Virus record (IMG/VR): IMGVR_UViG_3300030107_008116
Span: 1 to 36,231 of that record
From: a virus
DNA: 36,231 bases
Reading direction: 5' to 3' (one strand)
Below the pieces are notes generated by a model. That model ran no database searches, had not been told where the DNA came from, and saw only the letters and a list, made by a program, of their open reading frames with translations. The translations under genes and the position numbers were made by a program. Positions 13,746-32,275 of the stretch are shown here, one piece after another (the first letter of the stretch is position 1; each line of letters opens with the position of its first letter).

Positions 13746-14052
13746 GGGGGTGAACTGGTATCGACTAGGTATTGAAAACAGAATGTGCAAGGCTGTGAGA
13801 GTGCGGCACAGTAAAAACACTCAACCTTTTAAGCGCCAACGATAACGTTAGCCTTGACTATGCCCTAGCGGCATAATCACGGGGTGGCAGCAACCCTGTA
13901 ACCCAGAGCTGCAAAAAGAGTTTCCAATTTCTCTAAAGAGTTGGTGGTGCACCCAGCGGGTAAGTTTGTCAGAGTTCATATAACTGACTAACCTTGTGAA
14001 TGACATTTTGTCGGATGTATTTGGGACGCGGGTTCGATTCCCGCCACCTCCA
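13746..14052 (+). ncRNA. ssrA: tmRNA (10Sa RNA), one-piece
   Basis: 307 bases. The ends pair as tRNA-like acceptor GGGGGTG (13746-13752) with CACCTCC (14045-14051) and discriminator A; CCA is not encoded. The T-arm is GCGGG TTCGATT CCCGC. The tag frame starts with a GCC resume codon at 13835 and encodes ANDNVSLDYALAA before TAA (13874-13876), ending in the ALAA degron read by ClpXP-type proteases. The molecule frees stalled ribosomes and tags incomplete proteins. It is an intact phage-encoded copy; tmRNA is known in some large phages, for example cluster C mycobacteriophages. It ends 5 bases from the stop codon of a convergent gene. Confidence 0.95.
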
Positions 14053-14057
14053 TAACT

Positions 14058-14921: not shown

Positions 14922-15027
14922 TAACAAACCTCCGATAAAAATAAATATAAAGCCATCATACAATCCACCGATAAAGATAAGTGAACTATTTATTTTCGAA
15001 CATATAGATTAATGTAGGAAGGATCTT

Positions 15028-17107: not shown

Positions 17108-17494
17108 ATGAAAATAACACACACCATAGACAAAAAAGAGGGGCTCGTAAAGGTGGAAGCGTCATTACGACCCAGAATGAAAGAAAAGATCGCCATTAGA
17201 ACTGTGGCGATCGAAAAATACCTAAAGGAGAACAACATAAAGGTATCCCATTGCATCAAAGATGCGTTTGTCCTGAACACGGTCCCCCCTCATTCAGGGG
17301 TTTGGGTTTTCGCTCTTGACAACAAGTCAGAAAAGGTGTTACAACCTATCAAAGTGCAAGAAACAGTTTCTGATAAGCCCAGCGAACAAGTAACTGTTCC
17401 TGAGGAAAACGAAGGTGACCATCTCCCCAAGCCAACAAGGGGTACAAGAATTTCAAGGACACGCAGGAAAACCTCAACCAAGAAAGACGATTAA
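17108..17494 (+). CDS. Conserved hypothetical with basic tail
   Basis: 128 residues. The globular part (about 1-75) contains RTVAIEKYLKENNIKVSHCI and VLNTVPPHSGVWVFALD, a pattern I associate with small phage proteins ending in G-x-W-V-F, without known function. The rest is disordered: an acidic linker (VTVPEENEGDHLPKPTRG) and a basic end (RISRTRRKTSTKKDD). It lies 1 base before the nuclease gene. Confidence 0.6.
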   Translation: MKITHTIDKKEGLVKVEASLRPRMKEKIAIRTVAIEKYLKENNIKVSHCIKDAFVLNTVPPHSGVWVFALDNKSEKVLQPIKVQETVSDKPSEQVTVPEENEGDHLPKPTRGTRISRTRRKTSTKKDD

Positions 17495-17495
17495 A

Positions 17496-18263
17496 GTGCC
17501 TCACGTTTCTTTCAGTGCGATAAAGAATTGGGACTTTTGTCCCTTTTATCACAAATTAACCTATGTGGATGATATTCGCCTTTTTAAGGGCAATGTCCAT
17601 ACTGCCTTTGGAACGGCAGTGCACTTAGGTTGCGAGAAGTTGATTCTCAAGGAAATTGATGATCCTGAAGAGACTTTCCAAAATTCCTTTGCAGAAGAGT
17701 TGCGTGCACTGCCCGATGATCAGGAAATAGATCAATCCCTAGTGGAGCAGATGGGCTCTATCGGTGGTGAGCTATGCAGAATGGCAATTCATGAACTTAA
17801 TTTAAAGTTTCCTGGATTTCACGTAGTATCGGTGGAAGAGGAAATCGTCGAGCCTATCCTAGACGCCCCAGGAGAGTTCGACTTCAAAGGTTACATTGAC
17901 TTAGTGATTAAGACTCCGGACGACAAATATCACATTGTCGACTGGAAGACTTGTTCGTGGGGATGGTCCCCAGAGAAAAAGAACGATAAAATTACAAATT
18001 ACCAATTAGCATACTATAAAAAATTTTTTTGTGACAAGCATGATATAGACCCAAAGAATGTAGAGGTCTTTTTTGGCCTCCTGAAGAGAACAGCTAAGAA
18101 AGATAATGCTGAAATTTTTCGTGTTTCCAGCGGTGAGAGAAAAATAAATAATTCACTTAAAGTTTTAAATCAGGCAGTGTATAATATCCATAAAAAAAGA
18201 CACCCTAAGAATAAGCTTAACTGTAGGAGATGTGAATTTCACAGAACAGAGTGGTGTCCTTAA
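17496..18263 (+). CDS. Cas4/RecB-like PD-(D/E)XK nuclease
   Basis: 255 residues from GTG 17496, the first start after the upstream stop. Motifs in order: VSFSAIKNWDFCPFYHK, AFGTAVHLGCE (conserved His), VVSVEEEI, GYIDLVI (D135), HIVDWKT (D149-x-K151) and TNYQLAYYKKFF. One Cys near the N-terminus plus three at the C-terminus (CRRCEFHRTEWCP) match the 4Fe-4S layout of Cas4/AddB nucleases. Likely a DNA end-processing exonuclease for recombination or replication. Common in marine phages; no CRISPR array is near. Confidence 0.88.
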   Translation: MPHVSFSAIKNWDFCPFYHKLTYVDDIRLFKGNVHTAFGTAVHLGCEKLILKEIDDPEETFQNSFAEELRALPDDQEIDQSLVEQMGSIGGELCRMAIHELNLKFPGFHVVSVEEEIVEPILDAPGEFDFKGYIDLVIKTPDDKYHIVDWKTCSWGWSPEKKNDKITNYQLAYYKKFFCDKHDIDPKNVEVFFGLLKRTAKKDNAEIFRVSSGERKINNSLKVLNQAVYNIHKKRHPKNKLNCRRCEFHRTEWCP

Positions 18264-18271
18264 GGATATAG

Positions 18272-19603
18272 ATGGATCCGGATAAAAAAAAAATTAAAGT
18301 ACTTACAATTTCAGACCACCCCCTTTCACCCTCTGGGGTGGGAACCCAAACAAGATATTTTATTACCGAAATGCTAAAAACTGATAAGTTTCAGTTTATT
18401 AGTCTTGGCGGTGCCATCAAACATGAGAGCTATAAGCCAATTAAGATGGAAGAGTTCGGAGACGACTGGGTCATCTACCCGGTTGATGGATACGGCAATC
18501 AAGATACCGTAAGATCAATTTTAAGAACACATAAGCCAGATATTCTTTGGTTTATGACGGATCCTCGTTTCTGGGGATGGCTTTGGGAAATGGAAAACGA
18601 GATTAGACCCTTGTGTCCCATGGTCTACTATCATGTTTGGGACAATTACCCTTATCCAAAATTCAATAAAGTGTGGTACGAATCCTCAGATGTTGTAGCC
18701 ACAATTTCGAAATTAACTTCTGACATTGTTACCAAAGTAGCGCCAAACGTGAAAGAGAGCTACATTCCTCACACTGTTCAAACAGACTTGTTTAAGCGCT
18801 CTTCCGATGTCAGTCGTAGCTCCTTTAGAAAGCAGCACTTTGACATTGAAGATGATCATTTTCTAGTGTTTTGGAATAACCGAAACGCAAGAAGAAAACA
18901 GTCGGGCACATTAATATTTTGGTTTAAGGATTTCCTAGAGAAACTAGAGAAAAAGCATGGTGCCAAAGCAACATTGTTGATGCACACTGAACCAAATGAT
19001 CCAAATGGTCAAGATCTCCAAGCTATCATAAACGAGCTATCGCTCAAAAACAAGGAGGTTCTTCTTTCGACTCAAAAGATCCCCCCAGATGCCTTATCTC
19101 AAATTTATAGCGCAGCAGATTGCACCATAAACATATCAGACGCTGAAGGTTTTGGCCTGGCAACGTTTGAATCACTGTCTTGCGGCACGCCTATTATCGT
19201 CACTATGACAGGAGGTTTACAGGAGCAAGTAACCCCCATTACAGAGTTGAATCATGAAGCCATGGAAAAGAGGAACGAAGAAAGTGATTCCGTGGTCGAA
19301 TATGAACACGGTTTTGGCCTAGAACCTACTTCCAAAACCTATGTTGGTTCTCAGGGTGTACCTTATATCTATGAAGATCGCTTATCGAAGCAGCAAGTAG
19401 TAGATTCACTCATGAAGATGTATGAATTGGGTCACGAAGGTCGCCGTACCAAGGGTGACAACGGCCGTCAACATATCTTAGATAATTATGGGTTCGAAGG
19501 TTTCGCGTCCAAGTGGGAGGAGCTACTCACAAATGTCTACGAGGAGTATGGCTCTTGGGAAAATAGAAAAGGTTATAAATCTTGGGAGTTAATCACACTA
19601 TGA
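18272..19603 (+). CDS. GT4-type glycosyltransferase
   Basis: 443 residues, GT-B fold. The N-terminal domain has the GT4 glycine loop (SDHPLSPSGVGTQTRYFITE). The C-terminal domain carries E-x7-E (EGFGLATFE at about 291-299) followed by SLSCGTPIIV, the donor-binding helix of retaining GT4 enzymes. An extra segment (NEESDSVVEYEHGFGLEPT) interrupts the last part. First gene of the glycan island, 8 bases after the nuclease gene; its stop overlaps the next ATG (ATGA). Acceptor and sugar unknown. Confidence 0.85.
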   Translation: MDPDKKKIKVLTISDHPLSPSGVGTQTRYFITEMLKTDKFQFISLGGAIKHESYKPIKMEEFGDDWVIYPVDGYGNQDTVRSILRTHKPDILWFMTDPRFWGWLWEMENEIRPLCPMVYYHVWDNYPYPKFNKVWYESSDVVATISKLTSDIVTKVAPNVKESYIPHTVQTDLFKRSSDVSRSSFRKQHFDIEDDHFLVFWNNRNARRKQSGTLIFWFKDFLEKLEKKHGAKATLLMHTEPNDPNGQDLQAIINELSLKNKEVLLSTQKIPPDALSQIYSAADCTINISDAEGFGLATFESLSCGTPIIVTMTGGLQEQVTPITELNHEAMEKRNEESDSVVEYEHGFGLEPTSKTYVGSQGVPYIYEDRLSKQQVVDSLMKMYELGHEGRRTKGDNGRQHILDNYGFEGFASKWEELLTNVYEEYGSWENRKGYKSWELITL

Positions 19604-20868
19604 AGAAAGTTATTGTTCGTGGGCCAGCCTTAAGTCAGAGTGGTTATGGTGAGCACACCAGATTCCTCCTTAGGTCACTCAAGAGTAAGCCAGATCTTTT
19701 TGATATTTACCTTCTTAATGTTCCTTGGGGACAAACAGGCTGGGTCTGGGAAGACTCTGAGGAGCGTAGGTGGATCGATTCTTTATTACAGAAGACAATT
19801 GAATATGGTCAATCTGGGGGGCAATTTGATATTTCCTTGCAAGTCACCATCCCTAATGAATGGGAGAGAATGGCCCCAGTGAACATCGGAATCACGGCTG
19901 GGATTGAGACAACGAAGATAGCCCCTGTTTGGATTGAGAAATCTTTGCAAATGGATAAGATCATTGTGACGTCAGAGCACGCTAAGTATGGCTTTGAAAA
20001 CACAGAGACCCCTGCTTTTGATCAGAGTTCAGGTCGTCAAATCATGGCGAAGGTAAATTGCCCTATTGATGTTGTGGGCTATCCCGTTAAGGAAATTGAA
20101 CCTTCTGAATTGGAACTCGAACTAAAGCATGATTTTAACTTTTTAGCTGTCGGTACGTGGATCCCTAGAAAAAATCTTGAAAACACTATTAAATGGTTTG
20201 TTGAGGAGTTTTACGATCAGAGCGTAGGACTGGTAATCAAGACCTCTTTGGCGAAAAATTGCCTGGTGGATCGCGATTTCACTCGCAAGAGAGTAAAGGA
20301 TCTTTTAAGTGAATACTCAGAACGTAAATGTGATGTTCACCTTTTGCACGGGGACATGAGCGAAGAGGAAATGACAGCCCTCTATCAACACCCAAAGGTT
20401 AAGGCTTTTATTAGCTTATCTCATGGAGAGGGCTTTTGTTTGCCCCTGTTTGAGGCAGCGTATAACGGCTTGCCCATCATTGCATCGCCTTGGTCTGGGT
20501 ATGTTGATTTCTTGTATATGAACACCAAGAGCAAGAAATCCAAAGAAAAGAAGACGGCCATGTTCAGCCCAGTCCAATACGACTTAAAGCCGGTCCAAAA
20601 GGAAGCAATTTGGGAGGGCGTCATTCAATCGGATTCTTTATGGTGTTATCCGAAGGAATGGTCCGCCAAAAAGTGCATGAGGTCACTCTTTAAGGATTAT
20701 GGTTCTCATAAGTCCAAAGCTAAGAAGCTGCAAAAAAATGTAATGGTAGACTTTTCGCCCGATAACCAATACAACAAGATGTGCAACTCTATCATGAAGG
20801 ATCAGGCAGTGGTGGACAAGTCTGAGGTGGATGGTCTCTTCGACTCATTGATGGCGGACAATGAATAG
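19600..20868 (+). CDS. GT4-type glycosyltransferase
   Basis: 422 residues from ATG 19600 in an ATGA overlap with GGGAG upstream. Glycine loop VRGPALSQSGYGEHTRFLLR at the N-terminus. GT-B C-domain with FLAVGTWIPRKNLENTIKWF, then SHGEGFCLPLFEAAYNGLPI (E-x7-E) and ASPWSGYVDF. Clearly paralogous in layout to the preceding gene and translationally coupled to it, so the two may add successive sugars. Confidence 0.85.
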   Translation: MKKVIVRGPALSQSGYGEHTRFLLRSLKSKPDLFDIYLLNVPWGQTGWVWEDSEERRWIDSLLQKTIEYGQSGGQFDISLQVTIPNEWERMAPVNIGITAGIETTKIAPVWIEKSLQMDKIIVTSEHAKYGFENTETPAFDQSSGRQIMAKVNCPIDVVGYPVKEIEPSELELELKHDFNFLAVGTWIPRKNLENTIKWFVEEFYDQSVGLVIKTSLAKNCLVDRDFTRKRVKDLLSEYSERKCDVHLLHGDMSEEEMTALYQHPKVKAFISLSHGEGFCLPLFEAAYNGLPIIASPWSGYVDFLYMNTKSKKSKEKKTAMFSPVQYDLKPVQKEAIWEGVIQSDSLWCYPKEWSAKKCMRSLFKDYGSHKSKAKKLQKNVMVDFSPDNQYNKMCNSIMKDQAVVDKSEVDGLFDSLMADNE

Positions 20869-20881
20869 AAACTGAAGGAAG

Positions 20882-22489
20882 ATGATCTTCTTTGTATCTG
20901 ATTTTTTTGCTTGTGACGTGCTTGGTGGTGCTGAGCTTACCACCGAGGCATTGCTAGAGGACTCTTTAATGCCGATAAAGAGGGTCCGCTCCTCACAAGT
21001 CACTTCGAAATTAGTAAATGAAAATATTGATAAGAAGTGGATATTCGGCAACTTCTCAGGAGTGCCTGACGAATTGTTGCTGCTAGCCGCTAAGAAGCTA
21101 GAGTATTCTGTAATAGAGTATGACTATAAATTTTGTAAGTATCGCTCCACACACAAGCACGAACAAATAGAAGGTGCGTGCAAATGTGACAGATCCACAC
21201 ACGGAAAAATTATCTCTATTTTCTTCAAGAGTGCGAAAAACATTTTTTGGATGTCGGCAGCTCAAAGAGACGTTTATCTAGACGCTTTTCCCTTCTTGAG
21301 AAAAGCCAATAATATAGTTTTAAGTTCTGTTTTCTCTGAAGAGAGTATTCAATTCATACTTTCCCTTGACACGTCAAACAAGAGTGATAACTATTTGATA
21401 CTCAATTCTGAGTCTTGGATCAAGGGGACCAAAGAGTGTATTGAATATGCAGAAGCTAAAGGTATACCGTATGAGTTAGTGGGTGGCCTATCTCACAAAG
21501 ATCTTTTAAAAAAATTGGCATCGTCTAAGGGTCTCATATTCTTACCTCAAGGCCTTGATACGTGTCCTCGTATTGTTATTGAATCTAAGTTACTTGGGTG
21601 TGACTTAATTTTAAATGACTATGTGCAACACAAGGATGAAGATTGGTTCAAGGGTGACATAATCGAGTATGTAAGGGCTCAAAAAAAGCTATTTTTTAAT
21701 AATTGCCTGGATATAAAGTTTTGCAAGCCCGGTAGGGAAAGAAAAAATAAATTCCATTTTGTCATACCCGTTTATAACTCTGAAAAATTTATTTCCAAAA
21801 CAATTAGAAGCATCAAGAATCAGAAACATGGTGACTATACTGTTTCCATAGTTGACGATGTTTCTACTGATCGGACCCTAGATGTTATTAGGCGCGAAAT
21901 AGGGGATGATGATCGATTTTCTGTCATCAGTAATCAAGAAAAGAGTTTTGCCCTCTGTGGTATATCGAAAGCAATATCTAAACTAAATCCTGGCGATGAA
22001 GATATTATTTTTGTGCTCGATGGGGACGATTGGCTAAGTTCGTCTAGTGTCCTGGATGTGTTGGAACACGCATATTCGTCTGATAGTGAACTCCTATTGA
22101 CTTATGGCAGTTATATCGAACACCCAAGCGCTCTAAGGGGACCAGAGCCATCAGAGTATCCAAAGGATGTCATAAGAAACAATACCTTTAGAAAAGACAT
22201 GTGGCGTGCTTCACATCCAAAAACATTTAAGTATAAACTATGGAAGGGCATAGATCAAAAGGATTTCTTGGATGTCGATGGAGAGTTTTTCAAGACCTCT
22301 TATGATCAAGCCTTGATGTTACCGTTACTCGAAATGGCCCAAGAGAGGATCAAGTTCATCCCAGAACTTCTATATGTCTACAATAAGTCGAACCCTAATC
22401 ATCACAACCGTGGTAAAGAGAAAGTCCAATACGAAACCATGTTGAGGGTGCGAGAGAAGAAAACGTATGGTCGCATTAATCTACAATGA
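20882..22489 (+). CDS. Fused GT4-like and GT2 glycosyltransferase
   Basis: 535 residues. The N-terminal half (about 1-280) starts FFVSDFFACDVLGGAELTTE and holds a GT-B donor-site segment (LDTCPRIVIESKLLGCDLIL), with Cys-rich CKYRSTHKHEQ and CKCDRSTHGK insertions between. The C-terminal half from about residue 290 is a GT-A family 2 enzyme: FVIPVYNSEKFISKTIRSIK, VDDVSTDRT, and the metal-binding FVLDGDDWL near 380. Two catalytic domains in one chain suggest two consecutive transfers. The Cys-rich insertion could bind zinc. Confidence 0.82.
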   Translation: MIFFVSDFFACDVLGGAELTTEALLEDSLMPIKRVRSSQVTSKLVNENIDKKWIFGNFSGVPDELLLLAAKKLEYSVIEYDYKFCKYRSTHKHEQIEGACKCDRSTHGKIISIFFKSAKNIFWMSAAQRDVYLDAFPFLRKANNIVLSSVFSEESIQFILSLDTSNKSDNYLILNSESWIKGTKECIEYAEAKGIPYELVGGLSHKDLLKKLASSKGLIFLPQGLDTCPRIVIESKLLGCDLILNDYVQHKDEDWFKGDIIEYVRAQKKLFFNNCLDIKFCKPGRERKNKFHFVIPVYNSEKFISKTIRSIKNQKHGDYTVSIVDDVSTDRTLDVIRREIGDDDRFSVISNQEKSFALCGISKAISKLNPGDEDIIFVLDGDDWLSSSSVLDVLEHAYSSDSELLLTYGSYIEHPSALRGPEPSEYPKDVIRNNTFRKDMWRASHPKTFKYKLWKGIDQKDFLDVDGEFFKTSYDQALMLPLLEMAQERIKFIPELLYVYNKSNPNHHNRGKEKVQYETMLRVREKKTYGRINLQ

Positions 22490-23376
22490 AGATAAAGCTT
22501 GAAAATGTTAATTTAAGAAGTGCTTCTGGTCCCAATTCATTCGCCAATAAATTAAAAAAATACTTCGAATTATCAGGGGTCCAAATACAAGAGGAGGACT
22601 ACGAAGCAGTCTTGTGTTTTATTGAATCGCACAGGGACTTTGGGGATGTCCCCTTGTTTCAGCGCCTTGATGGAATTTATTTCAACAATGAGCACGATTT
22701 TGAGATGCAGAACCGGAATATCCTTAGGACTTACCGGGCAGCTAAAGGAGTTATATTTCAGTCAAATTTTAACAAAAAATTGACATTCAAACACTTTGGG
22801 GCCCACGACAACAGCGTGGTCATACATAACGGCGCTGACATAGAAAAGATAAAAAACACCCGAGCACTAGAGCACTTATTCTTTGATAAGTATGAGAATG
22901 TTTGGAGTTGTGCCTCTAATTGGAGACCCCATAAGCGTCTTAAGGAAAATGTAAGATACTTTTTGGAACACAAGGGGGAAAAAGATTGCTTAATTGTAGC
23001 GGGGGATACGAATGAGCAATTTAGGGACGCAAATATATTTTTTGTAGGTCAGTTCACACACGAACTTCTTTTATCTCTCTACAAGAGAAGCAGGTACTTC
23101 ATCCATTTGGCTTGGCTGGACCACTGTCCCAATGTTGTGGTTGATGCTAGGGCTTCTGGTTGCCACATCGTATGTTCCAGTGAAGGTGGTACGAGAGAGA
23201 TTGCTGGCCTTAATTCCACTATAATAAGGGAGGAAGAGTGGGACTTTAAGCCCACCAAACTCTACAGTCCCCCTGAGATGGATTTTACGAAAAAATTTAA
23301 CAATTCAGAAGAGATATGTTATGATATGAATGTAATTTCAAAAAAATATATCAACTTTATGAACAGAGAGATCTAA
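22486..23376 (+). CDS. GT4-like glycosyltransferase
   Basis: 296 residues, ATGA overlap with the previous gene. N-domain LRSASGPNSFANKLKKYF; central QSNFNKKLTFKHFG and VIHNGADIEKI; C-domain WSCASNWRPHKRLKENVRYF, then FIHLAWLDHCPNVVVDARAS and GCHIVCSSEGGTREI. The second Glu of E-x7-E is replaced by Asp in VVVDARASG and the first falls at D in WLDHC, so the usual Glu pair is missing. Shorter than its neighbours. Probably active as a divergent enzyme; uncertain. Confidence 0.75.
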   Translation: MKIKLENVNLRSASGPNSFANKLKKYFELSGVQIQEEDYEAVLCFIESHRDFGDVPLFQRLDGIYFNNEHDFEMQNRNILRTYRAAKGVIFQSNFNKKLTFKHFGAHDNSVVIHNGADIEKIKNTRALEHLFFDKYENVWSCASNWRPHKRLKENVRYFLEHKGEKDCLIVAGDTNEQFRDANIFFVGQFTHELLLSLYKRSRYFIHLAWLDHCPNVVVDARASGCHIVCSSEGGTREIAGLNSTIIREEEWDFKPTKLYSPPEMDFTKKFNNSEEICYDMNVISKKYINFMNREI

Positions 23377-23386
23377 GAGTATACCA

Positions 23387-24376
23387 ATGAACATAGCCTT
23401 TGTATCGTCTCACAACAATAACTACACTGGGTCTTATCGTATCTGGGTTAACGACCTGGCTAAATACATCAATGAACTAGAGGGTGTAGGAACAACGGCT
23501 AGAAAGTGTGGACCACAGAGCAATCTATGTGACGCTGATGTTGTGATATGTGCCAAAGGTCATGAGGCACACGCCTCACAAATTAAAAAAAAATACCCCA
23601 ACAAAAAAGTAGGCATCATTAATTTGGCAGCCGACTCAAGAGGTCTGCCCATTGATTTTGTTATCGTGGGTTCCTTGGAGGAAAAAGATAGCCTCTCTCA
23701 CTATGATAATGTGCTCATGTTTCCCCTCATTGAAGATATGTTTCGTGATTGCATTCCCAAAAAGCACAGCAACAAAGGTCGCTTAAGAATAGGTTTTCAC
23801 GGTCATTATCCGCATCTAAGTAAGTTTGCGCCTCACTTGAAGTCAGCCCTTGAGAGCATTGATAAGGAGCGCGACATAGAGTTGCTTGTTGTCACCTCAA
23901 ACAACGGTTTCGTGTGGAGGCACGGGAGACCAAATATAAAAAACATTATTGTAGAACCATGGGACCAAGAGACAATAAAGGGGCTCCTGATGACGTGCGA
24001 CGTAGGTGTAGCCCCAAACATAACAACAATTCCTATGGATGTTAACAGATTTGAGACCTCAGTAGACGCTGGACTTTATGATACTGACTATATCTTTCGC
24101 ATGAAGAACAAATCTAACGCTGGACGCTCTTTCGTTTTTCATCAATTGGGAATACCTGTAATAGGTGACCTCACGCCAAGCAATTTTCACATCATGGGAG
24201 ATCCGTCTTGCGGCTTCCTAGTCCAGAGTAAGCTTGGATGGGAAAAGGCTTTAAATAAATTATTTGACCACGAACTAAGAAACTTAATTTCTGAAAATGC
24301 TAGAAGAGAGTTTCAAAGATTATATGACCCACACGATTGGGCTAAAAGACTAATAGAGGAGATATCAAGGTTATAA
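23387..24376 (+). CDS. Divergent GT-B glycosyltransferase
   Basis: 329 residues. N-domain FVSSHNNNYTGSYRIWVNDL; later RLRIGFHGHYPHLSKFAPHL, VTSNNGFVWRHGRPNIKN, DVGVAPNITTI, and a C-terminal FVFHQLGIPVIGDLTPSNFH. Overall topology fits GT-B with a nucleotide-sugar-binding second half, but no E-x7-E is present. Stop and next start overlap by one base (TAATG). Specificity unknown. Confidence 0.65.
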   Translation: MNIAFVSSHNNNYTGSYRIWVNDLAKYINELEGVGTTARKCGPQSNLCDADVVICAKGHEAHASQIKKKYPNKKVGIINLAADSRGLPIDFVIVGSLEEKDSLSHYDNVLMFPLIEDMFRDCIPKKHSNKGRLRIGFHGHYPHLSKFAPHLKSALESIDKERDIELLVVTSNNGFVWRHGRPNIKNIIVEPWDQETIKGLLMTCDVGVAPNITTIPMDVNRFETSVDAGLYDTDYIFRMKNKSNAGRSFVFHQLGIPVIGDLTPSNFHIMGDPSCGFLVQSKLGWEKALNKLFDHELRNLISENARREFQRLYDPHDWAKRLIEEISRL

Positions 24377-25119
24377 TGGAAAAAGGTATTCTTTACATAG
24401 CATTTGGGGAAAACTTCTTAAAAGAAATGCTAATTTCTGCTGAGTCTGTTAAAAAGCATTGCCCCGATTTACCGATCACAGTTTTCTCTGATAAGATGGT
24501 GAAGTCTGAATTCATTGATCACTGCAAACTCATAAAAGTGTCGCACTTAAGGCCGAAGATTGACTACATTCATATGACTCCATATGAAAAGACAATATTT
24601 TTAGATACCGACACCATTTTGGACAGAAGTATCGAGGATTTGTTTGATTTGCTGGATAATTTCGATTACGCAGCCACTCATGATCTAGCCAGAAAGAGAA
24701 AGAAGTACTCTAAGAACATTCCAGAATATGGCCAGATACCTTACTCTTTTTCAGAAGTGAATACGGGAGTAATGGCGTTTAGGAAAAATGAAAAAGTTTT
24801 AAAACTTTTTCAAATGTGGAAAGAGAATTTTTATAAATTTTATAATTTTAGTCCATGGGACCAGCCTTCATTTCGCATATCTCTTTGGAATAGTATTGAG
24901 GAAGGACTAAAGTTTTACATCTTCCCGGTGGAATACAACATTAGAAGTAAAGCTAACAGAGAAAAGCAAAGAAAATTCCATCATGAATTCGGCGAGGAAC
25001 ACTTAGCTCCTCGAATATATCACATGCATGTTGACACTAGAATCAACCAAGGGCGATACGATGTTGAGTCTCTGGAAGATGCTTTAGAATTTTGCAAAAG
25101 CAATTTTATGGAGTATTAA
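24376..25119 (+). CDS. GT8-like (GT-A) glycosyltransferase
   Basis: 247 residues. N-terminal strand GILYIAFGENFLKEMLISAE, then LPITVFSD and the metal site IFLDTDTIL (D-x-D near residues 76-78), followed by VNTGVMAFRKNEKVLKLFQM and WDQPSFRISLW, a pattern typical of GT8/glycogenin-like enzymes. A late HMHVD could be the third metal ligand. Part of the coupled glycan operon; directly followed by the methyltransferase gene. Confidence 0.8.
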   Translation: MEKGILYIAFGENFLKEMLISAESVKKHCPDLPITVFSDKMVKSEFIDHCKLIKVSHLRPKIDYIHMTPYEKTIFLDTDTILDRSIEDLFDLLDNFDYAATHDLARKRKKYSKNIPEYGQIPYSFSEVNTGVMAFRKNEKVLKLFQMWKENFYKFYNFSPWDQPSFRISLWNSIEEGLKFYIFPVEYNIRSKANREKQRKFHHEFGEEHLAPRIYHMHVDTRINQGRYDVESLEDALEFCKSNFMEY

Positions 25120-25695
25120 TTGACTTACGCAAAAATAATCAAGGACATGAAGCGCGCTGGGAAGGGTCTCATGTCAGAAGTGCAATACATGAGGGTCGCT
25201 AAAAGACTTAGTCAATTATCGCCATGCAATTTTCTAGTTTTTGGCCTCGGCGAAGATGCTCTCGCCTGGAAAGAAATCAATGAAGGGGGCCGAACAGCAT
25301 TTCTCGAAGATGATAGGGATTGGATTGGCCAATTTTCCGACAAAGATTTAGAAATCTACCCAGTAGAGTACAACACGAGAGCGCAAGATCACCACATGAT
25401 AGGTTTCGAATCGGATAAGTTGGAGATGGAATTACCTGAGGAGATCCTAGACACAAAGTGGGACATCATCTTTGTCGATGGACCTCTCGGTCATAATCCT
25501 CCGCGACCGTATAAAGGCCCTGGAAGAATGAAGAGCATACACGCCGCCTACAATCTCCTTAAAGATGGTGGCACTTGTGTCGTAGATGACATGGGGAGGG
25601 AAATTGAGAGAAAATACTCTTTTCACTACTTTGATGTGAGTGGTTTGTGCGAATTAGTGGAGGGAAAAGTTGGAATCTTTAAGAAGATTGGTTGA
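25120..25695 (+). CDS. GXM/DUF579-like sugar O-methyltransferase
   Basis: 191 residues, TTG start at 25120 right after the preceding stop. The sequence follows the plant glucuronoxylan 4-O-methyltransferase/IRX15 family: FLVFGLGEDALAWKEINEGG then RTAFLEDDRDWI (AdoMet-binding), EIYPVEYNTRAQD, WDIIFVDGPLGHNPPRPY, PGRMKSIHAAYNLL and CVVDDMGREIERKYS. In plants the enzyme methylates O-4 of glucuronic acid on xylan. Here it is embedded between glycosyltransferases, so methylation of an acidic sugar in the phage-made glycan is the likely role. Overlaps the next gene by 26 bases. Confidence 0.75.
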   Translation: MTYAKIIKDMKRAGKGLMSEVQYMRVAKRLSQLSPCNFLVFGLGEDALAWKEINEGGRTAFLEDDRDWIGQFSDKDLEIYPVEYNTRAQDHHMIGFESDKLEMELPEEILDTKWDIIFVDGPLGHNPPRPYKGPGRMKSIHAAYNLLKDGGTCVVDDMGREIERKYSFHYFDVSGLCELVEGKVGIFKKIG

Positions 25696-26410
25696 GGATA
25701 AGGTTGTTGCAATTGTAGGTCCTGCCAAGTATATGTCAGGCTCTAATTATGGGGCGGAAATTGATTCTCACGATTTAGTGGTCAGGATCAATAGGGGCAT
25801 CGAATCTACAAAGAAATATCCCCGTGACATAGGAAAAAGAACAGAAATACTCTACTCTTGCTTGATAGAGAGGGCCCAACAAGCAGGAAAAATAGACCCA
25901 CAAAGCTTGAAGGGTTCGTACGGCGTTAAGCATATAGTCGCTCCACCGGTCTCGGATATGAAAGGGTTTTCAAATGGAACCAGGTATCACAGCTTGGTAA
26001 AGAAAGAAACAATAAAAGCTCTATCATCCCTGTTCCAGATGAGCATTATCGACCAAGATCTTAATAATGAGATAGCTAAGGAAATCAAGTGTAAACCGAA
26101 TACAGGCTTTTTGGCGATATATCATTTGTTGTCCATGAACCCCAAAAGTTTAAAGGTATATGGCTTTAGCTTTTATCTGGATGGTTTCATACCAGGGCAG
26201 AAAAGTGGGGTTGAGAATGAAAAAAAATGCACAGAACAAGAATTTGCAGACATGGCCTTCAACTCAAAAAGGCACGTGCAAGTAGATATGTGGAGGTACG
26301 CTAAGAGAACTTTAGTTAATGACCCTAGAATCAGATTGGACCCGGTTCTAAAAGAGATTTTGAACATGAAAGAGTTTAGCAGAAAAGCGTTTTTAGGGAT
26401 TGTGAATTGA
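25670..26410 (+). CDS. GT29-like sialyltransferase
   Basis: 246 residues; TTG 25670 has GGAGGG at 5 bases (TTG 25688 is the alternative). The N-terminal block VVAIVGPAKYMSGSNYGAEI continuing DSHDLVVRINRG corresponds to the sialylmotif L, and PNTGFLAIYHLLSMNPKSLK with VYGFSFY to motif S. A final HVQVD stands where GT29 enzymes have the short His-x4-Glu motif, so that residue pattern is altered. GT29 enzymes use CMP-sialic acid or CMP-Kdo. The next gene, coupled by TTGA, encodes a CMP-sugar synthetase, which supports the call. Confidence 0.72.
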   Translation: MESLRRLVEDKVVAIVGPAKYMSGSNYGAEIDSHDLVVRINRGIESTKKYPRDIGKRTEILYSCLIERAQQAGKIDPQSLKGSYGVKHIVAPPVSDMKGFSNGTRYHSLVKKETIKALSSLFQMSIIDQDLNNEIAKEIKCKPNTGFLAIYHLLSMNPKSLKVYGFSFYLDGFIPGQKSGVENEKKCTEQEFADMAFNSKRHVQVDMWRYAKRTLVNDPRIRLDPVLKEILNMKEFSRKAFLGIVN

Positions 26411-27057
26411 AGATCTTCATACCAATAAAAGAAAAATCACAGAGAGTGCCTGGAAAAAATTTTAGAAAATTTCAAGGTGCTCCGTTATACAAGCATGTCA
26501 TGAGAAAATTCTCTAACCACGAAGTGTATGTGGACACAGATAGCGAAGAAGTTATTGTGGAGTGTCAGGGCGACAATTCCCTCTCACACGTTACCGCCTA
26601 TAAGAGAGAGGACAGGCTAATAGGTCACGAGGTTTCTGTGTGCGATCTAATAGAGCACTTTATTGACAAATACAGCATAGTGAACCCTATAGCTCAAATA
26701 CATGTCACGAGCCCCTTTATTACGCCAGAGATACTTGAAAAGGCTTATTTGCACCTTTCACCTGGGATAATTGACTCTGTAGTGTCCTGCAACGTTATTG
26801 CCTCGCGCATATGGAGGAGAGAAGATTATGGGTTTTGTCCTGTTAATCACAATCCATTGAAGATGGAGCAGACACAAGATTTACCTAGGCTTTATGAGGA
26901 GAACTCTGCCTTTTACATATTCGAGCCACGGACTATCAAGAAATATGGCAATAGGGTCGGCCAGCTACCATATTTTTTCGAGGTGGGGGCTCCCTTTAAT
27001 ATCGATATCGACACAGAAGACGATTGGCTTTTGGCGGAAAAAGCGAGTAACCAATGA
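26407..27057 (+). CDS. CMP-sialic acid/CMP-Kdo synthetase-like cytidylyltransferase
   Basis: 216 residues, TTG start in a TTGA overlap. The nucleotide-binding N-terminus is FIPIKEKSQRVPGKNFRKFQ (the R-x-P-x-K-N loop of NeuA/KdsB). Then VYVDTDSEEVI, QIHVTSPFITPEIL, VSCNVIASRIW, YEENSAFYIFEPRTI and NIDIDTEDDWLLAE, with a D-x-D for metal. It would activate a 2-keto-3-deoxy acid sugar with CTP. The protein is slightly short but all core motifs are present. Coupled to the GT29-like gene upstream and the aldolase downstream. Confidence 0.85.
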   Translation: MKIFIPIKEKSQRVPGKNFRKFQGAPLYKHVMRKFSNHEVYVDTDSEEVIVECQGDNSLSHVTAYKREDRLIGHEVSVCDLIEHFIDKYSIVNPIAQIHVTSPFITPEILEKAYLHLSPGIIDSVVSCNVIASRIWRREDYGFCPVNHNPLKMEQTQDLPRLYEENSAFYIFEPRTIKKYGNRVGQLPYFFEVGAPFNIDIDTEDDWLLAEKASNQ

Positions 27058-27737
27058 GCAAGAGACTTCTTTGGCAACAAATACCTTCTCCAATAATTTC
27101 TGAAATATTTTGTTCTAGTGGGGTGGACGGGGTTGTTCTCGACACAGAGCATGCCTGTTTCAATAAAGAAACGCTCTTTAGTTGTATACAGATCATAACT
27201 TGTTGGAAGAGGGAATGCTTTGTGCGCCTGGGGAATCTAGATGATTCTATGGTTAGGTTTTGCCTCGACGCAGGCGCTACGGGATTAATATTTTCCACTG
27301 TTGAGAGTGTCACTCAAACAGAAAAAATAATGAATTTGTGCAAATATCCTCAATATTCTGGCAAGCGTGGCCTAGGCCTAGTGAGGCAGAATCGGTGGGG
27401 CCTTGATCAATTGGTGAGCCCTCCTCCAACAATCATAGCCCAAATTGAAACACTAAAGGGGGTCGACAACATCCAGAAGTTAAAGGGGTTTGACTTCTAC
27501 ATGATAGGACCCTATGACCTGTCTGCCAGTATGGGTATTCCCGGTAACTTCCAGGATCAAAAGTTCTTGGACGCCCTAACGAGAGTCGGCAATAGCATTC
27601 CAGTGGGGAAAATGGCAGTACACATTCCCTGCGATGTGCACAATGAGATAAAAAAGTATAAAAATTATGGTATAATAGCTGTAGGGATGGACACAATAGC
27701 TCTAGTGGAGAGTTGTAAGGAAATGAAAAATGCTTAA
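27054..27737 (+). CDS. HpcH/HpaI-family pyruvate aldolase
   Basis: 227 residues, ATGA overlap. Keeps the class II (metal) aldolase residues of the HpaI family: LDTEHA with catalytic H33, VRLGN (pyruvate-binding Arg), QIET (metal Glu132) and MIGPYDLSASMG (metal Asp155). Such enzymes join pyruvate reversibly to aldehydes, giving 2-keto acids, and are usually catabolic. Its place between a CMP-keto-sugar synthetase and an isomerase/phosphatase suggests a synthetic role here: building a keto-deoxy acid sugar from pyruvate. That role is inference; the fold and active site are clear. Confidence 0.82.
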   Translation: MSKRLLWQQIPSPIISEIFCSSGVDGVVLDTEHACFNKETLFSCIQIITCWKRECFVRLGNLDDSMVRFCLDAGATGLIFSTVESVTQTEKIMNLCKYPQYSGKRGLGLVRQNRWGLDQLVSPPPTIIAQIETLKGVDNIQKLKGFDFYMIGPYDLSASMGIPGNFQDQKFLDALTRVGNSIPVGKMAVHIPCDVHNEIKKYKNYGIIAVGMDTIALVESCKEMKNA

Positions 27738-28698
27738 TTTCGAGAACCTAGACGAAAAATTTGTAAAGACTGTTAATTCGTGTGCTTGGAAAGAACTACA
27801 GGAAAAATTTAATCGATGTGATGAGGTGTATGTCTTGGGGCATGGTGGCAATTTGGCGGTCGCTGATCATGCTGCGGTTGATATCACTAGGCTTTCCAAC
27901 GGCAACAAGAACGCTATGTGCCCGGGAAGTGGTGTGGTTGCCACCTCGTTAATAAATGATGTGGGGTTTGATAATTGGATGGTCAGTTGGCTATCAAGTC
28001 GTACTACATCTCGCACGAAAAAACAAATGAAGAAATCTTTAATTTTGGGTATATCTTCTTCAGGGAAATCAAGGGACATTATAAAATCTTTACAGTGGGG
28101 CTCCGATAATGGCATGGAGATAGCCCTGATAACTTCTAACCCGATCGTAGAAAGCGTAAATAACCTAACACAAGTGGTTCTAGGGGCAGAATACTACCAC
28201 ACCTCTGAGGTCCTTACATTGCTCCTTACTTATGAGCTGACGCACGGCTCAGGAAACGTGTGTCCCCCAATAGGACAAAACTCACCAGAGGAACTAGAGA
28301 ATTTGAACTGGAAAGGGGGAAGGGTCAGAGAGCACAGTTACCCCGATGAACAAATTAACATCGGAGTAGACTTTGATGGTGTTATTCATAAGTGCTCCAA
28401 GGGGTATTATGATGGGACCATATACGATGAGCCTGTTGAGGGTGTGCACGAGGCACTTAAAGAACTCTCACAGAGGTATACCGTTATTGTCTACACGTGT
28501 AAGGCGAGAGCGGATCGAGGGCTTGTAAACGGTAAGACCGGAACTCAACTCGTATGGCAGTGGCTTGAGGAAAATAACCTCTCTCAGTTCGTAGGAAAAG
28601 TCACTTCTGAAAAACCTCGTGCCGTGGCATACATTGATGACAAATCCATTAAGTTTAATAGTTGGGAAACATGCATGAAAGAGGTGTGCGGCCTATGA
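27730..28698 (+). CDS. SIS sugar-phosphate isomerase fused to HAD phosphatase
   Basis: 322 residues, 8-base overlap with the aldolase. Residues 1 to about 190 are a GmhA-type SIS domain: VYVLGHGGNLAVADHAAVDI, SLINDVGFDNWMVSWL and ILGISSSGKSRDIIKSLQ. The usual GNGGS phosphate loop is GHGGN (residues 37-41), losing a Ser, while the second Ser loop (109-111) is kept. From about 208 a HAD domain follows: GVDFDGVIH (D214, D216), VIVYTCKAR and AVAYIDDKSIKF. GmhA isomerises sedoheptulose-7-P, and GmhB and KdsC are HAD phosphatases, so the fusion looks like two steps of heptose or ulosonic acid synthesis. Substrate uncertain. Confidence 0.82.
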   Translation: MLNFENLDEKFVKTVNSCAWKELQEKFNRCDEVYVLGHGGNLAVADHAAVDITRLSNGNKNAMCPGSGVVATSLINDVGFDNWMVSWLSSRTTSRTKKQMKKSLILGISSSGKSRDIIKSLQWGSDNGMEIALITSNPIVESVNNLTQVVLGAEYYHTSEVLTLLLTYELTHGSGNVCPPIGQNSPEELENLNWKGGRVREHSYPDEQINIGVDFDGVIHKCSKGYYDGTIYDEPVEGVHEALKELSQRYTVIVYTCKARADRGLVNGKTGTQLVWQWLEENNLSQFVGKVTSEKPRAVAYIDDKSIKFNSWETCMKEVCGL

Positions 28699-28865
28699 AA
28701 ATAATGAAGATATATATTGTGACTCATAGGGGGTGTGAGGTCCTGAACGGTACTATAGGTAAATTATTTGATTCCGACTTCTCAAGACTAGACAACACCG
28801 AGGTCAACGTAATCAATAATCATTCGCACTTTTTTTTAGAGCCAGGGTATATAATCCATGATTAA
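28695..28865 (+). CDS. Truncated GT2-like fragment, 56 residues
   Basis: ATG 28695 in an ATGA overlap. The sequence KIYIVTHRGCEVLNGTIGKL then NTEVNVINNHS is the first beta-alpha-beta unit of a family 2 glycosyltransferase. The chain stops at 28865 before any D-x-D site, and no continuation is visible in the other frames. Likely the remnant of a GT-A gene cut by replacement of its 3' part with the next gene, or a free-standing small domain. It cannot be active alone. Confidence 0.6.
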   Translation: MKIMKIYIVTHRGCEVLNGTIGKLFDSDFSRLDNTEVNVINNHSHFFLEPGYIIHD

Positions 28866-29502
28866 TGTTTGTAATTTGGGCAGGATACCAATGCCGATGG
28901 AGGACAATCCTCTATACAGAACATCCTTGCAGATCCTAGAGGATGAAAATATTTTGCCCGAACATACGCATCTGCACGATTTTAACAAGAGCTTCAGGCC
29001 TGAGAGCTTGGGGGATATTTTCGGGGTTGATTTCATGACGAATATTCCTTATTGGCCAGTTTTCCTTCCATGGCTGCACCACCGACCTCTAGAAAAGTAT
29101 CGAGACGTAGCGTTTGTGAATTTTGACCTTGAAAAGAAGGTGGACAAATTAAAAAACTTAATAACTTCCATAAAAGAGCATGGCTTTGTTCCAGAGGATT
29201 TCCCCGACAGAAAAGGCGGAATAACTGGTTATCATCTGAGTGCATTGTCGCGGAAAAGACTATACATTGTTAGCGGAAATCATCGTAGTGCCGTCTTAAG
29301 TGCCTTGGGGAAGGAAATTCAACACCAACCAGAGAGAGGAAAGGGAACCAAGGCAAGAGAGCTAGAGGGCATAGGTGTAGACTATGATACAATGCCTCTT
29401 ATATTTTCCAGTCAAGATGTGACTTCATGGCCATCTGTAAAAAGTGGCTTCTTGAGCGAATCTGAGGCTATTACCATTATGAATAAATATGTGGAGACCT
29501 AA
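28858..29502 (+). CDS. ParB/Srx-like domain protein
   Basis: 214 residues, 8-base overlap. The C-terminal half holds LYIVSGNHRSAVLSALGKEI, the G-x-H-R segment of the ParB N-terminal/sulfiredoxin-like fold that binds CTP or ATP, preceded by IKEHGFVPEDFPDR. The N-terminal half (DFMTNIPYWPVFLPWLHHRP) is unrecognised. No HTH follows, so plasmid-type partition is unlikely. In a glycan operon it might act as a nucleotide-dependent kinase or transferase; function open. Confidence 0.55.
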   Translation: MINVCNLGRIPMPMEDNPLYRTSLQILEDENILPEHTHLHDFNKSFRPESLGDIFGVDFMTNIPYWPVFLPWLHHRPLEKYRDVAFVNFDLEKKVDKLKNLITSIKEHGFVPEDFPDRKGGITGYHLSALSRKRLYIVSGNHRSAVLSALGKEIQHQPERGKGTKARELEGIGVDYDTMPLIFSSQDVTSWPSVKSGFLSESEAITIMNKYVET

Positions 29503-30189
29503 ATGAACAAAGAAAACTTAAGCAAACAGATTGACCTACTGTCTTCAGAGGGCGAATGGAATCATTGTTACGAATTCCCTTTTGGTCTCAAGACGAGACG
29601 ACACCATATTCAAAGCCCTGGCTATAATCTAAACAAGTGGGAAAGAATAGAGCCCTTAATAGAACTTTTAGATCCCAGTGGGAAGACCTTGTTAGATGTT
29701 GGGTGTAGTGATGGATTTTTTTCTATCATGTCGGCGAACAAGGGAATGGACAATGTACTAGGTATAGACCTCGATCCCTTAAGAATCAGGAAGGCAAATT
29801 TCGCTAAGGAAGTGTATGGCGTTAATAATGTAGATTTTAAAGTTTTTGATTTGTATGACTTCAAGGAGCAAGATTCTTATGATATAATATTAGGGCTTGG
29901 CTTGATTCATAGGGTCCCTGATATCGAAACTTGTTTAAAAAAACTTTCTACCATTGGTGAAAACATTATCCTAGAGTTTAAGACATATGACAGCGAAGAG
30001 CCTGTTTGTAAATATAGAGGCGGCAATACCAAGTCCAACATTTATAATGCATTGCATTATGTTCCGACAAAGAGCTTCATGATTGAGAAGATGACCGGTC
30101 TCGGGATGGGTAAGTATCAGGTCCTCGATGATGAAAAGAGTGGTCTCAAATATAAGAGAACAATAATGATGTTCTCAAGGGGTGCTTGA
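29503..30189 (+). CDS. AdoMet-dependent methyltransferase (class I)
   Basis: 228 residues, starting right after the preceding stop. AdoMet motif I is TLLDVGCSDGFFSIMSA near 60-75, motif II VLGIDLDPLRI, then FKVFDLYDF and the post-II region DIILGLGLIHRVPDIETCLK. An N-terminal cap KWERIEPLIELLDPSG precedes, in the manner of CmoB/DUF1698-type enzymes. The position suggests O- or C-methylation of a sugar, but tRNA or small-molecule substrates are possible. Confidence 0.82.
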   Translation: MNKENLSKQIDLLSSEGEWNHCYEFPFGLKTRRHHIQSPGYNLNKWERIEPLIELLDPSGKTLLDVGCSDGFFSIMSANKGMDNVLGIDLDPLRIRKANFAKEVYGVNNVDFKVFDLYDFKEQDSYDIILGLGLIHRVPDIETCLKKLSTIGENIILEFKTYDSEEPVCKYRGGNTKSNIYNALHYVPTKSFMIEKMTGLGMGKYQVLDDEKSGLKYKRTIMMFSRGA

Positions 30190-31007
30190 TTTTGAAAAAC
30201 AAGATATTTGAAAAGTTTAAAGATGCTCATGATGGAGAAAGGGTCTTCCTTGTGGCCAATGGACCCAGCCTGGCAAAAACAGACCTTAGTTTCTTGGAGG
30301 GCGAAGTATCAATAGCGATGAACAGAATCTCGTTGATTTACGATAAGTACCCCACTTGGAGGCCCACATATTATCTTTTTTCTTCCACAAATGTTAGAAA
30401 TGAAGTGTGGGGCACTTCTTGGCTTGAGTCTGTACATAAATCTATGTCTTGTGACGAAACCACTTCCTTTATTGCCAAAATGTTCAAGCCAGACATTGAC
30501 CCAAAAGGTGCTTATGCGAACACATTTTGGTTTGATTCTATGTCTGAATTTAAACCTTCGCAAGATGGCTTGGTGTCTGACAGGTGCTTCTCGACAGATG
30601 TAGTGGAAAGAATTGATAAATCCGGCACAACAATGAATTTGGCATTACAATTGGCATATCACATGGGCTTTTCTGAAGTTGTGTTCGTGGGTGCAGATTT
30701 AGGCTGGAAGCTCGATAAGGGATCAAAAAGTGATCCGAATCATTTTGACAATTCTTATCGAGCTAACATATCCAACCCTCAAAAGGCTAATAACCAAATG
30801 AGAAACATACATTCACTTGCCCTTAAAAGGTTCTTGGAGCGCGATAAGGAGGTTAATTTTTACAATGCGTCTCTGGAGACTATTTTAGATGTCTACCCAA
30901 TCATAGATTACGAAGAATATATCAAGAACAACAAGATTGTTGTGCTAGAAGAGAAGAATGAACTAGCTAAAATGGCTTGGGACCACCCTCCACAGTTTTT
31001 GGTGTGA
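30186..31007 (+). CDS. DUF115/GT42-like putative glycosyltransferase
   Basis: 273 residues. The TTG at 30186 overlaps the previous stop, but TTG 30192 has better spacing (AAGGGG 9 bases away). Motifs: VFLVANGPSLAKTDLSFLEG near residue 20, IAMNRISLIYDKYP, and TTMNLALQLAYHMGFSEVVF then VGADLGW. This order (NGPSL...N...LGF-x-x-x-x-x-G-x-D) is shared by DUF115 (MptE/Maf-like) proteins and by bacterial GT42 sialyltransferases such as CstII. A CMP-sugar-using transferase would fit the neighbours. Family assignment is moderate. Confidence 0.65.
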   Translation: MILKNKIFEKFKDAHDGERVFLVANGPSLAKTDLSFLEGEVSIAMNRISLIYDKYPTWRPTYYLFSSTNVRNEVWGTSWLESVHKSMSCDETTSFIAKMFKPDIDPKGAYANTFWFDSMSEFKPSQDGLVSDRCFSTDVVERIDKSGTTMNLALQLAYHMGFSEVVFVGADLGWKLDKGSKSDPNHFDNSYRANISNPQKANNQMRNIHSLALKRFLERDKEVNFYNASLETILDVYPIIDYEEYIKNNKIVVLEEKNELAKMAWDHPPQFLV

Positions 31008-31038
31008 GTTGTAACTAAGGCACTCCCCCCTGAACAAG

Positions 31039-31437
31039 ATGATGACCAACACTAGTTTAGTAAATTTTGTCCCTAAGGGCTGGGGATTCGAGAAGTGGAT
31101 ATGCAATAGTGAAAAATATTGTGGTAAATTATTGTACCTCGTGAAGGACAAGAAATGTTCACTGCACTACCACAAGATCAAGGACGAAGTATTCTACATA
31201 CAGTCAGGAAAAGTCAAGCTTTTATGGTCTGATGAGGTGAGTAAAGTAGAGGAGATCGCAGGGGCCGGCATTTCTGTTGATCGCCTTCTGACAAAAAATA
31301 TTTTAGAAAAAGGAGATAGATTTCACATTCCTGTCCATCGCGTGCACCAAATTATTGCCCTAGAGGACACAGAGATTTTTGAATTTTCAACACAACACTT
31401 TGATGAAGATTCGATAAGAATTATTAAAGGAGATTAA
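31039..31437 (+). CDS. Cupin-fold protein
   Basis: 132 residues (ATG 31039 or 31042). Cupin motif 1 is CSLHYHKIKDEVFYIQSGKV with two His and a Glu; motif 2 is GDRFHIPVHRVHQIIAL with His. This is the single-domain form of sugar isomerases or epimerases such as type II phosphomannose isomerase cupins and lyxose isomerase. Last gene of the glycan island, likely an isomerase in sugar supply. No Shine-Dalgarno is evident, and a C-rich run precedes the start. Confidence 0.72.
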   Translation: MMTNTSLVNFVPKGWGFEKWICNSEKYCGKLLYLVKDKKCSLHYHKIKDEVFYIQSGKVKLLWSDEVSKVEEIAGAGISVDRLLTKNILEKGDRFHIPVHRVHQIIALEDTEIFEFSTQHFDEDSIRIIKGD

Positions 31438-31905: not shown

Positions 31906-32275
31906 AATCGTTATCGCGTTGTGTGTGTTTTTATTTCTTTCGGTGGCAATTAATGGTGTCTTGGTATGGTACGCGAAGACGAACCTATCAAAAGTTGACA
32001 CAATTTATACGGCCTCCGAAAGCGCATCGGAGATTTTCAGCATGATCGAATCATATCGCTCACATTTATCCTCAGTATACGAGAAGCCTCTTTTTTACGG
32101 AGATGAGACACTTCAAGGTCTCTTAGAACACACAAACAGTTTAATAAAGTTCCTGAAACGTTACGAAGAGGTCTATTCCTTCACACAACCGAACCTTGAG
32201 GAAAAGCTCCTAACAGTTTCAGGATTACCGGAGGAACATGACGAAGAAAATAAGGAAGAAGCGGAAGAGCAATAA
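31898..32275 (+). CDS. Membrane-anchored hypothetical protein
   Basis: 125 residues. One N-terminal transmembrane helix (EIVIALCVFLFLSVAINGVL), then a cytoplasmic or periplasmic helical domain (ESASEIFSMIESYRSHLSSV, LQGLLEHTNSLIKFLKRYEE) and a very acidic tail (PEEHDEENKEEAEEQ). Overlaps its upstream neighbour by 8 bases and the sigma factor by 38. A membrane protein at this place next to the late sigma gene occurs in other marine T4-like phages; role unknown. Confidence 0.65.
   Translation: MVEIVIALCVFLFLSVAINGVLVWYAKTNLSKVDTIYTASESASEIFSMIESYRSHLSSVYEKPLFYGDETLQGLLEHTNSLIKFLKRYEEVYSFTQPNLEEKLLTVSGLPEEHDEENKEEAEEQ

Follow-up and report, generated by a model that had tools for sequence, protein, structure and literature searches.

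The DNA analyzed here (the window) comprises 36,231 nucleotides, positions 1–36231 of the 37,129-base IMG/VR virus record IMGVR_UViG_3300030107_008116. It is a genome fragment of an aquatic phage, and the contig is a piece of a T4-superfamily phage genome; no near-identical DNA was found in the INPHARED phage collection. At positions 18272–31437, between a PD-(D/E)XK (PDDEXK) nuclease gene and a late sigma factor gene, the window carries a glycan-synthesis island of 15 intact genes and one truncated remnant, all on the plus strand, most of which overlap or are separated by a few bases (Table 1). The intact set consists of eight glycosyltransferase (GT)-type proteins, two methyltransferases, a cytidine monophosphate (CMP)-ulosonate-type synthetase, an HpaI-type aldolase, a SIS-HAD fusion, a ParB-like protein and a cupin. 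Seven GT-type open reading frames (ORFs) exceeded curated Pfam cut-offs (Glycos_transf_1 three times, Glycos_transf_2, Nucleotid_trans, Glyco_transf_29, and MptE-like/DUF115 [PF01973]), as did matches to IRX15/GXM methyltransferase, CTP_transf_3, HpcH_HpaI, and several methyltransferase models. An earlier note on this DNA had listed such activities, with at least six GTs; by Pfam, PDB, and NCBIfam matches every activity it listed is present, and eight intact GT-type ORFs were counted, one of them (GTe) by predicted structure, whereas the ParB-like gene had been left out of its list.

Table 1 Genes of the island and its flanking landmarks, in window coordinates.
Feature	Position	Strand	Evidence
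PIN-PhoH protein (upstream landmark)	15028–16350	+	PF02562 4.5e-52; phrog_2765 8.8e-111
PD-(D/E)XK exonuclease (anchor gene directly upstream of island)	17415–18263	+	PF12705 1.1e-19
GT4a, core family-4 glycosyltransferase	18272–19603	+	PF00534 4.6e-11
GT4b, core family-4 glycosyltransferase, overlaps GT4a	19582–20868	+	PF00534 3.2e-8
GT with C-terminal GT2 domain	20882–22489	+	PF00535 1.5e-17, residues 294–399
GTd, family-4-like glycosyltransferase	22486–23376	+	PF00534 27.0 bits vs cut-off 26.4
GTe, GT-B fold glycosyltransferase	23387–24376	+	AF2 model, PDB matches
GT8/Nucleotid_trans-like GT-A glycosyltransferase	24376–25119	+	PF03407 3.8e-7
GXM/IRX15-type methyltransferase	25120–25695	+	PF21729 2.9e-29, 102 bits vs cut-off 27.8
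GT29 sialyltransferase-fold glycosyltransferase	25670–26410	+	PF00777 2.4e-11
CMP-ulosonate synthetase, NeuA/PseF type	26407–27057	+	PF02348 3.1e-11; 1qwj 2.6e-12
HpcH/HpaI-type pyruvate aldolase	27054–27737	+	PF03328 5.6e-18; 7et8 1.2e-21
SIS (GmhA-like) isomerase fused to HAD phosphatase	27730–28698	+	GmhA-type PDB and NCBIfam matches
Truncated N-terminal remnant of a ~309-aa GT-like gene	28662–28865	+	Full-length homologues elsewhere
ParB-like protein	28858–29502	+	SGNHR motif invariant in 4 aligned homologues
S-adenosylmethionine-dependent methyltransferase, DUF1698/Methyltransf_31 type	29503–30189	+	PF08003 1.5e-12; PF13847 6e-12
DUF115/MptE-like (Maf-type) putative ulosonate transferase	30186–31007	+	PF01973 1.2e-9, above cut-off
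Cupin, WbuC-like	31039–31437	+	Cupin_1 1e-4; WbuC 0.0012; P-SSM2 homologue 2e-43
T4 gp55-like late sigma factor (downstream anchor)	32238–32924	+	phrog_234 2.7e-5

The N-terminal half of the third GT (20882–22489) had no Pfam match, nor did GTe, whose AF2 model (mean pLDDT 71) gave GT-B enzymes as its top PDB matches, with E-values as low as 2e-9. The GT8-like protein was 67–75% identical to its counterparts in relatives. The GXM-type protein also matched TIGR01627 (5.2e-30, under that model's cut-off); the GXM/IRX15 family is that of the plant glucuronoxylan 4-O-methyltransferases. GT29 is an animal-type sialyltransferase family whose donors are CMP-sugars. The GT29 protein of the window matched PF00777 at 44 bits (cut-off 23) across the sialylmotif L region, its motif L-like and S-like blocks (the latter PNTG..YGFSFY) are conserved, and its best PDB match was an animal alpha-2,3-sialyltransferase (3e-4). 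The synthetase was nearer NeuA/PseF than KdsB in PDB and NCBIfam comparisons (PseF 2.4e-14, under the model's cut-off), with the conserved blocks SQRVPGKN (N-terminal nucleotide-binding), Q.HVTSP (QxTSP-type), QDLP, and DID.E (DxD metal site). Conserved residues of the aldolase were those of class II HpcH/HpaI enzymes, namely DxEH, an arginine, the metal-binding E, and the D in GPxDLS, and the HAD half of the fusion conserved the motifs DFDGV and YIDD (DxD and DD motifs). The PF01973 (DUF115) family includes Maf flagellin glycosyltransferases; the window's member weakly matched PseD (4e-5) and WaaZ (0.0025) in NCBIfam, and its structure model (pLDDT 47) was too poor for use. The ParB-like protein had no match in Pfam or NCBIfam.

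Because single-protein scans with GT29 and GXM returned no or only weak viral relatives, SIS-HAD, GT8, and GT4a were taken as queries. The SIS-HAD scan gave 155 related stretches, from which 80 loci (numbered with L below) were kept. Since loci picked by SIS-HAD bias synteny counts, the counts were redone on GT4a-picked loci; at least 598 stretches encode a GT4a relative, and 80 were kept. The earlier note had proposed looking for the same genes in the same order in related phages, with scattered, degraded copies as the outcome that would speak against it. That outcome was not seen: the full block was intact and collinear in L002/L089, L057/L058, and L088, at about 40–87% protein identity.

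The PDDEXK nuclease gene lay directly before GT4a in 68 of 68 GT4a-picked loci, and GT4b directly after it in 73 of 74. GT4a was found in 41 of 44 records (38 with strong E-values) and GT4b in all 19 large records tested, and Rhodothermus phage RM378 carries the pair. The distance from GT4b to the sigma gene was 0.2–0.3 kb in 20 loci and 0.7 kb in a single locus; the others had 3.6–16.6 kb, and the window has 11.4 kb. The interval is a cassette slot that holds up to 17 kb or is empty. In several short-gap phages (L027, L042, L069, L224, L227) the glycan genes lie beyond the nuclease instead. Flavobacterium phage immuto and Microcystis phage Mel-JY01 share the anchor (PDDEXK, GT4a, GT4b, then a variable run of glycan genes) but fill the slot with a different cassette containing aminotransferases and an epimerase, in which SIS-HAD, aldolase, and CMP-synthetase genes were not detected. 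In Mel-JY01 (L083, PP395634.1, 14998–16489), GT4a is annotated as two genes with a TGA inside the six-frame match, either a broken gene or a sequencing error.

A cellular source of the SIS-HAD fusion was sought in genome contigs and yielded one metagenome-assembled genome (MAG) contig with the fusion and one HAD-only match; as just two peptide patterns were searched, this is at most suggestive of a virus-specific fusion. On that contig, an 8.1-kb Verrucomicrobia MAG sequence (L102, NHCX01000012.1, 1926–3594), a CMP-synthetase-like gene adjoins the SIS-HAD fusion, and it may be a mis-binned phage contig.

The Gp23 sequences of five relative contigs, immuto, Mel-JY01, and RM378 formed one clade against T4 and P-SSM2 with 100/100 support, and this phylogeny places the block-carrying relatives within the Far-T4 (RM378) clade of the T4 superfamily. 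The window contig lacks gp23, which falls outside the fragment; its position was taken from the anchor genes, which put it closest to G001 (L088) and others. In comparisons of pairwise identity, not formal reconciliation, among 7–16 phages, GT4a tracked Gp23 (r = 0.95) and the late sigma factor (r = 0.91, n = 16), and GT4b did likewise (r = 0.85, n = 8, and r = 0.76, n = 16, respectively). By contrast, SIS-HAD showed no vertical signal against sigma (r = −0.12, n = 16), and the aldolase (0.18), CMP synthetase (0.28), and GT29 (0.29) correlated with it weakly; GTe and GT8 followed sigma, but only among the six phages having the whole block. Between the window and L002, SIS-HAD was 87% identical and the surrounding genes mostly about 50–61%, a sign that SIS-HAD probably recombined between Far-T4 phages. 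Because the correlations differ and SIS-HAD identity exceeds that of its neighbors, GT4a and GT4b appear to be vertically inherited core genes, and much of the cassette between GT4b and sigma appears to have been exchanged. The genes that had been described as a single block are all present, but the GTs at 18272–20868 are conserved phage core outside the variable cassette.

The cassette genes measured evolve under purifying selection. Simple Nei–Gojobori counts on close pairs gave median ratios of nonsynonymous to synonymous substitution (dN/dS) of 0.02–0.21 overall, including GT4a 0.12, GT4b 0.18, GT29 0.21, CMP synthetase 0.14, aldolase 0.09, SIS-HAD 0.09, and DUF115 0.13; the third GT, GTd, GTe, GT8, GXM, the ParB-like protein, and the methyltransferase had no close pair and are left out. 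Whether the lipopolysaccharide (LPS) clusters of cyanophages are functional or stuffer DNA filling a headful genome was left open (PMC3037559), and the same could be asked of this cassette, which in the window has one truncated gene and lacks others present in relatives, in a slot that tolerates 0.2–16.6 kb. The low dN/dS argues against stuffer DNA, as do the intact catalytic motifs and the retention of a collinear block at about 40–87% protein identity, and we consider non-functional filler very improbable, the least probable of the explanations weighed here. With its motifs intact, its gene order conserved, and its dN/dS low, the island is, as judged from sequence, a real and functional glycan-synthesis block, and there is good support for the proposal of a complex glycan pathway encoded by the phage itself.

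This copy is trimmed relative to the full block of its relatives, since a GT-like gene is truncated and several others are missing. Homologues of the remnant at 28662–28865 are 286–325 aa long and complete in 20 other loci. In L088 and L002 the ~309-aa GT-like gene is followed by kinase-like and nucleotidyltransferase-HAD genes, both missing from the window, and in L002, L057, and L088 an epimerase and a UDP-glucose/GDP-mannose dehydrogenase-type gene stand where the window has only the cupin. The window phage may therefore depend on host nucleotide sugars. A UDP-glucose dehydrogenase close to a GXM-type 4-O-methyltransferase would fit a 4-O-methyl-hexuronate.

The co-occurrence of isomerase, phosphatase, aldolase, synthetase, GT29, and DUF115 families suggests that the product is a CMP-3-deoxy-2-ulosonic acid. 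The SIS-HAD fusion would convert a ketose phosphate to a free aldose, the aldolase would join pyruvate to it to give a 3-deoxy-2-ulosonic acid, and the NeuA/PseF-like enzyme would convert this to its CMP derivative, which would be transferred by the GT29-type protein and perhaps also by the DUF115/Maf-like protein. The remaining GTs would attach further sugars, and the GXM-type enzyme would methylate a hexuronate. The acceptor would be encoded by the phage and is most likely a virion protein. GT4a and GT4b may start or build the glycan base on it in the host cytosol, ahead of virion assembly or while assembly proceeds, and the exchangeable cassette would extend and cap that base; possible benefits are a change in adsorption, masking, or the exclusion of rival phages. 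We infer the pathway order, the sugar, the acceptor, and the benefit.

The earlier note had proposed a glycan on either the virion or the host surface. No transmembrane (TM) segments were predicted in the island proteins of the window, and only 2 of 299 ORFs across about 20 islands had any; in the same scan, the E. coli K-12 O-antigen/colanic acid control gave 4 of 23, with flippases, polymerase, and initiator detected. The roughly 20 islands thus showed no membrane protein resembling a flippase, polymerase, or polyprenyl-P initiator, a result that speaks against remodeling of host LPS, O-antigen, or capsule in infected cells as a means to exclude rival phages or cut progeny loss on debris. 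This remodeling would account for enzyme families that match LPS/exopolysaccharide and Kdo-type pathways, for the weak match of DUF115 to WaaZ, and for a cassette exchange resembling O-antigen variation, and it has precedents in P-SSM2 and S-SSM7 and in a superinfection-exclusion proposal (PMC3037559, PMC7824862). Nevertheless, the GT pair follows capsid phylogeny across host phyla, whereas LPS cores differ among such hosts, and we regard a host-surface target as less likely but a serious alternative, well ahead of stuffer DNA. In phages whose hosts are Flavobacterium, Rhodothermus, and cyanobacteria, the GT4 pair is inherited together with the capsid gene, which favors a phage-made acceptor and is the strongest hint of one. 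Taken with the missing export genes, the evidence leans toward a phage-encoded acceptor without settling the choice.

In another explanation, GT4a and GT4b would glycosylate hydroxymethylated phage DNA, and the cassette would extend the DNA sugars. The core pair lies beside DNA-metabolism genes, GT4a also matches the GT4-conflict family, and T4-like phages are known to glycosylate DNA. However, PF00303 (thymidylate synthase/deoxycytidine monophosphate hydroxymethylase) was unmatched in 16 of the 19 large GT4a/b records, including the complete RM378 and Mel-JY01, a count that covers large relatives while the window phage itself is a fragment; this speaks against DNA glycosylation. Ulosonate, GXM, and GT29 enzymes are also not known to modify DNA. 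A Tet_JBP search gave no match, but its control was silent too and the search was uninformative. On this balance a DNA target is very improbable.

We therefore give about even odds to a functional, modular island that makes a cytosolic glycan on a phage-encoded, likely virion, acceptor and caps it with a phage-made CMP-activated ulosonic acid. More tentatively, and somewhat short of even, the Far-T4 group may possess dedicated virion glycosylation, consisting of a vertical GT pair and a swappable cassette, here with an ulosonic-acid cap added by a sialyltransferase-fold enzyme. Several points weigh against these proposals. The ulosonate route is assembled from family-level matches, with the SIS domain under its Pfam cut-off and the PseF, PseD, and WaaZ matches under those of NCBIfam, and specificity for a Kdo-, Kdn-, or longer-type acid is not readable from sequence. 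The sample behind the correlations is small, gp23 is missing from the window contig, and the glycan of this phage may be reduced, given the parts lost relative to its relatives. A virion or host-surface location is read here from the genes, and LPS-core GTs are soluble too, so the missing TM segments would also fit a host-surface target.

The description of the island as much larger than single phage glycosyltransferases is true, but T4-like cyanophages, P-SSM2 among them, were already known to carry multi-gene glycan/LPS clusters (PMC3037559, PMC7824862). The P-SSM2, S-SSM7, and S-SM2 clusters are likewise multi-gene sets of GTs and sugar enzymes in T4-superfamily phages, and some lie near phoH and tRNAs (PMC3037559). 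None of the P-SSM2 cluster proteins tested had TM segments, and the cupin is shared with P-SSM2 glycan cluster 2 (2e-43). Apart from this and weak GT/SIS matches, the island did not share the genes of the P-SSM2 clusters; those tested had no homologue of GT4a/b, GT29, GXM, CMP synthetase, or aldolase, the P-SSM2 Gp23 lies in another clade, and no conserved GT-pair anchor has been described for cyanophage clusters. Mycobacteriophage virion glycosylation, with glycans on capsid and tail proteins (Freeman 2023, as cited in PMC12619734), would be a functional analogue of the favored virion glycosylation, differing in scale and in the CMP-sugar pathway. The island resembles Maf/PseD-type flagellin glycosylation in combining a PF01973-family protein with a PseF-like CMP synthetase, but has an HpaI-type aldolase in place of a NeuB/PseI-type synthase (none was seen), and its matches fall under equivalog cut-offs. 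It differs from Wzx/Wzy O-antigen or capsule loci in that the cassette has no TM segment and no integral-membrane flippase, polymerase, or initiator.

The surroundings of the island include five tRNA genes and one transfer-messenger RNA (tmRNA) gene on the contig, the latter at 13746–14055 (Rfam RF00023, 110 bits) with the tag ANDNVSLDYALAA. A trypsin-like peptidase gene (14058–14963; Trypsin_2 4e-10) lies on the minus strand in otherwise plus-strand surroundings; the N-terminus of its product resembles a lipoprotein signal, and it is possibly a moron. The PIN-PhoH gene precedes PDDEXK in most GT4a loci, and an ORF between PhoH and the nuclease (16403–17104) is conserved in most of them; its match to a metallopeptidase toxin family (20 bits, below cut-off) was judged a generic protease-fold signal and rejected. 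Downstream of sigma the window carries late-type genes, among them one (33209–34267) whose product has a C-terminal VanY D-Ala-D-Ala carboxypeptidase domain (2e-19) and is likely a tail-borne cell-wall enzyme. The T4 late promoter TATAAATA had zero occurrences across the window.

In the sea, Far-T4 phages are common, undergo active production, and are largely linked to Flavobacteriales (PMC13037479). Words beginning with "glycos" were absent from the Far-T4 papers examined, including PMC13037479, and our literature search found no paper joining Far-T4 with glycosyltransferase. Cyanophages already have glycan clusters of this kind, of which the island is a variant; what is new is the conserved GT-pair anchor with its exchangeable cassette slot and, as predicted from protein families, a CMP-ulosonate route that looks complete and includes a sialyltransferase-fold enzyme. 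The predicted pathway would reach an activated ulosonic acid by way of an aldolase, an unusual route. If the proposal holds, existing isolates would allow the functional-versus-stuffer question raised for the cyanophage clusters (PMC3037559) to be tested, and exchanging the cassette would alter the type of virion glycan, in a phage parallel to the variation of O-antigens or flagellin glycans. The core GT pair and its exchangeable cassette would then make glycosylation a defining trait of Far-T4 phages.

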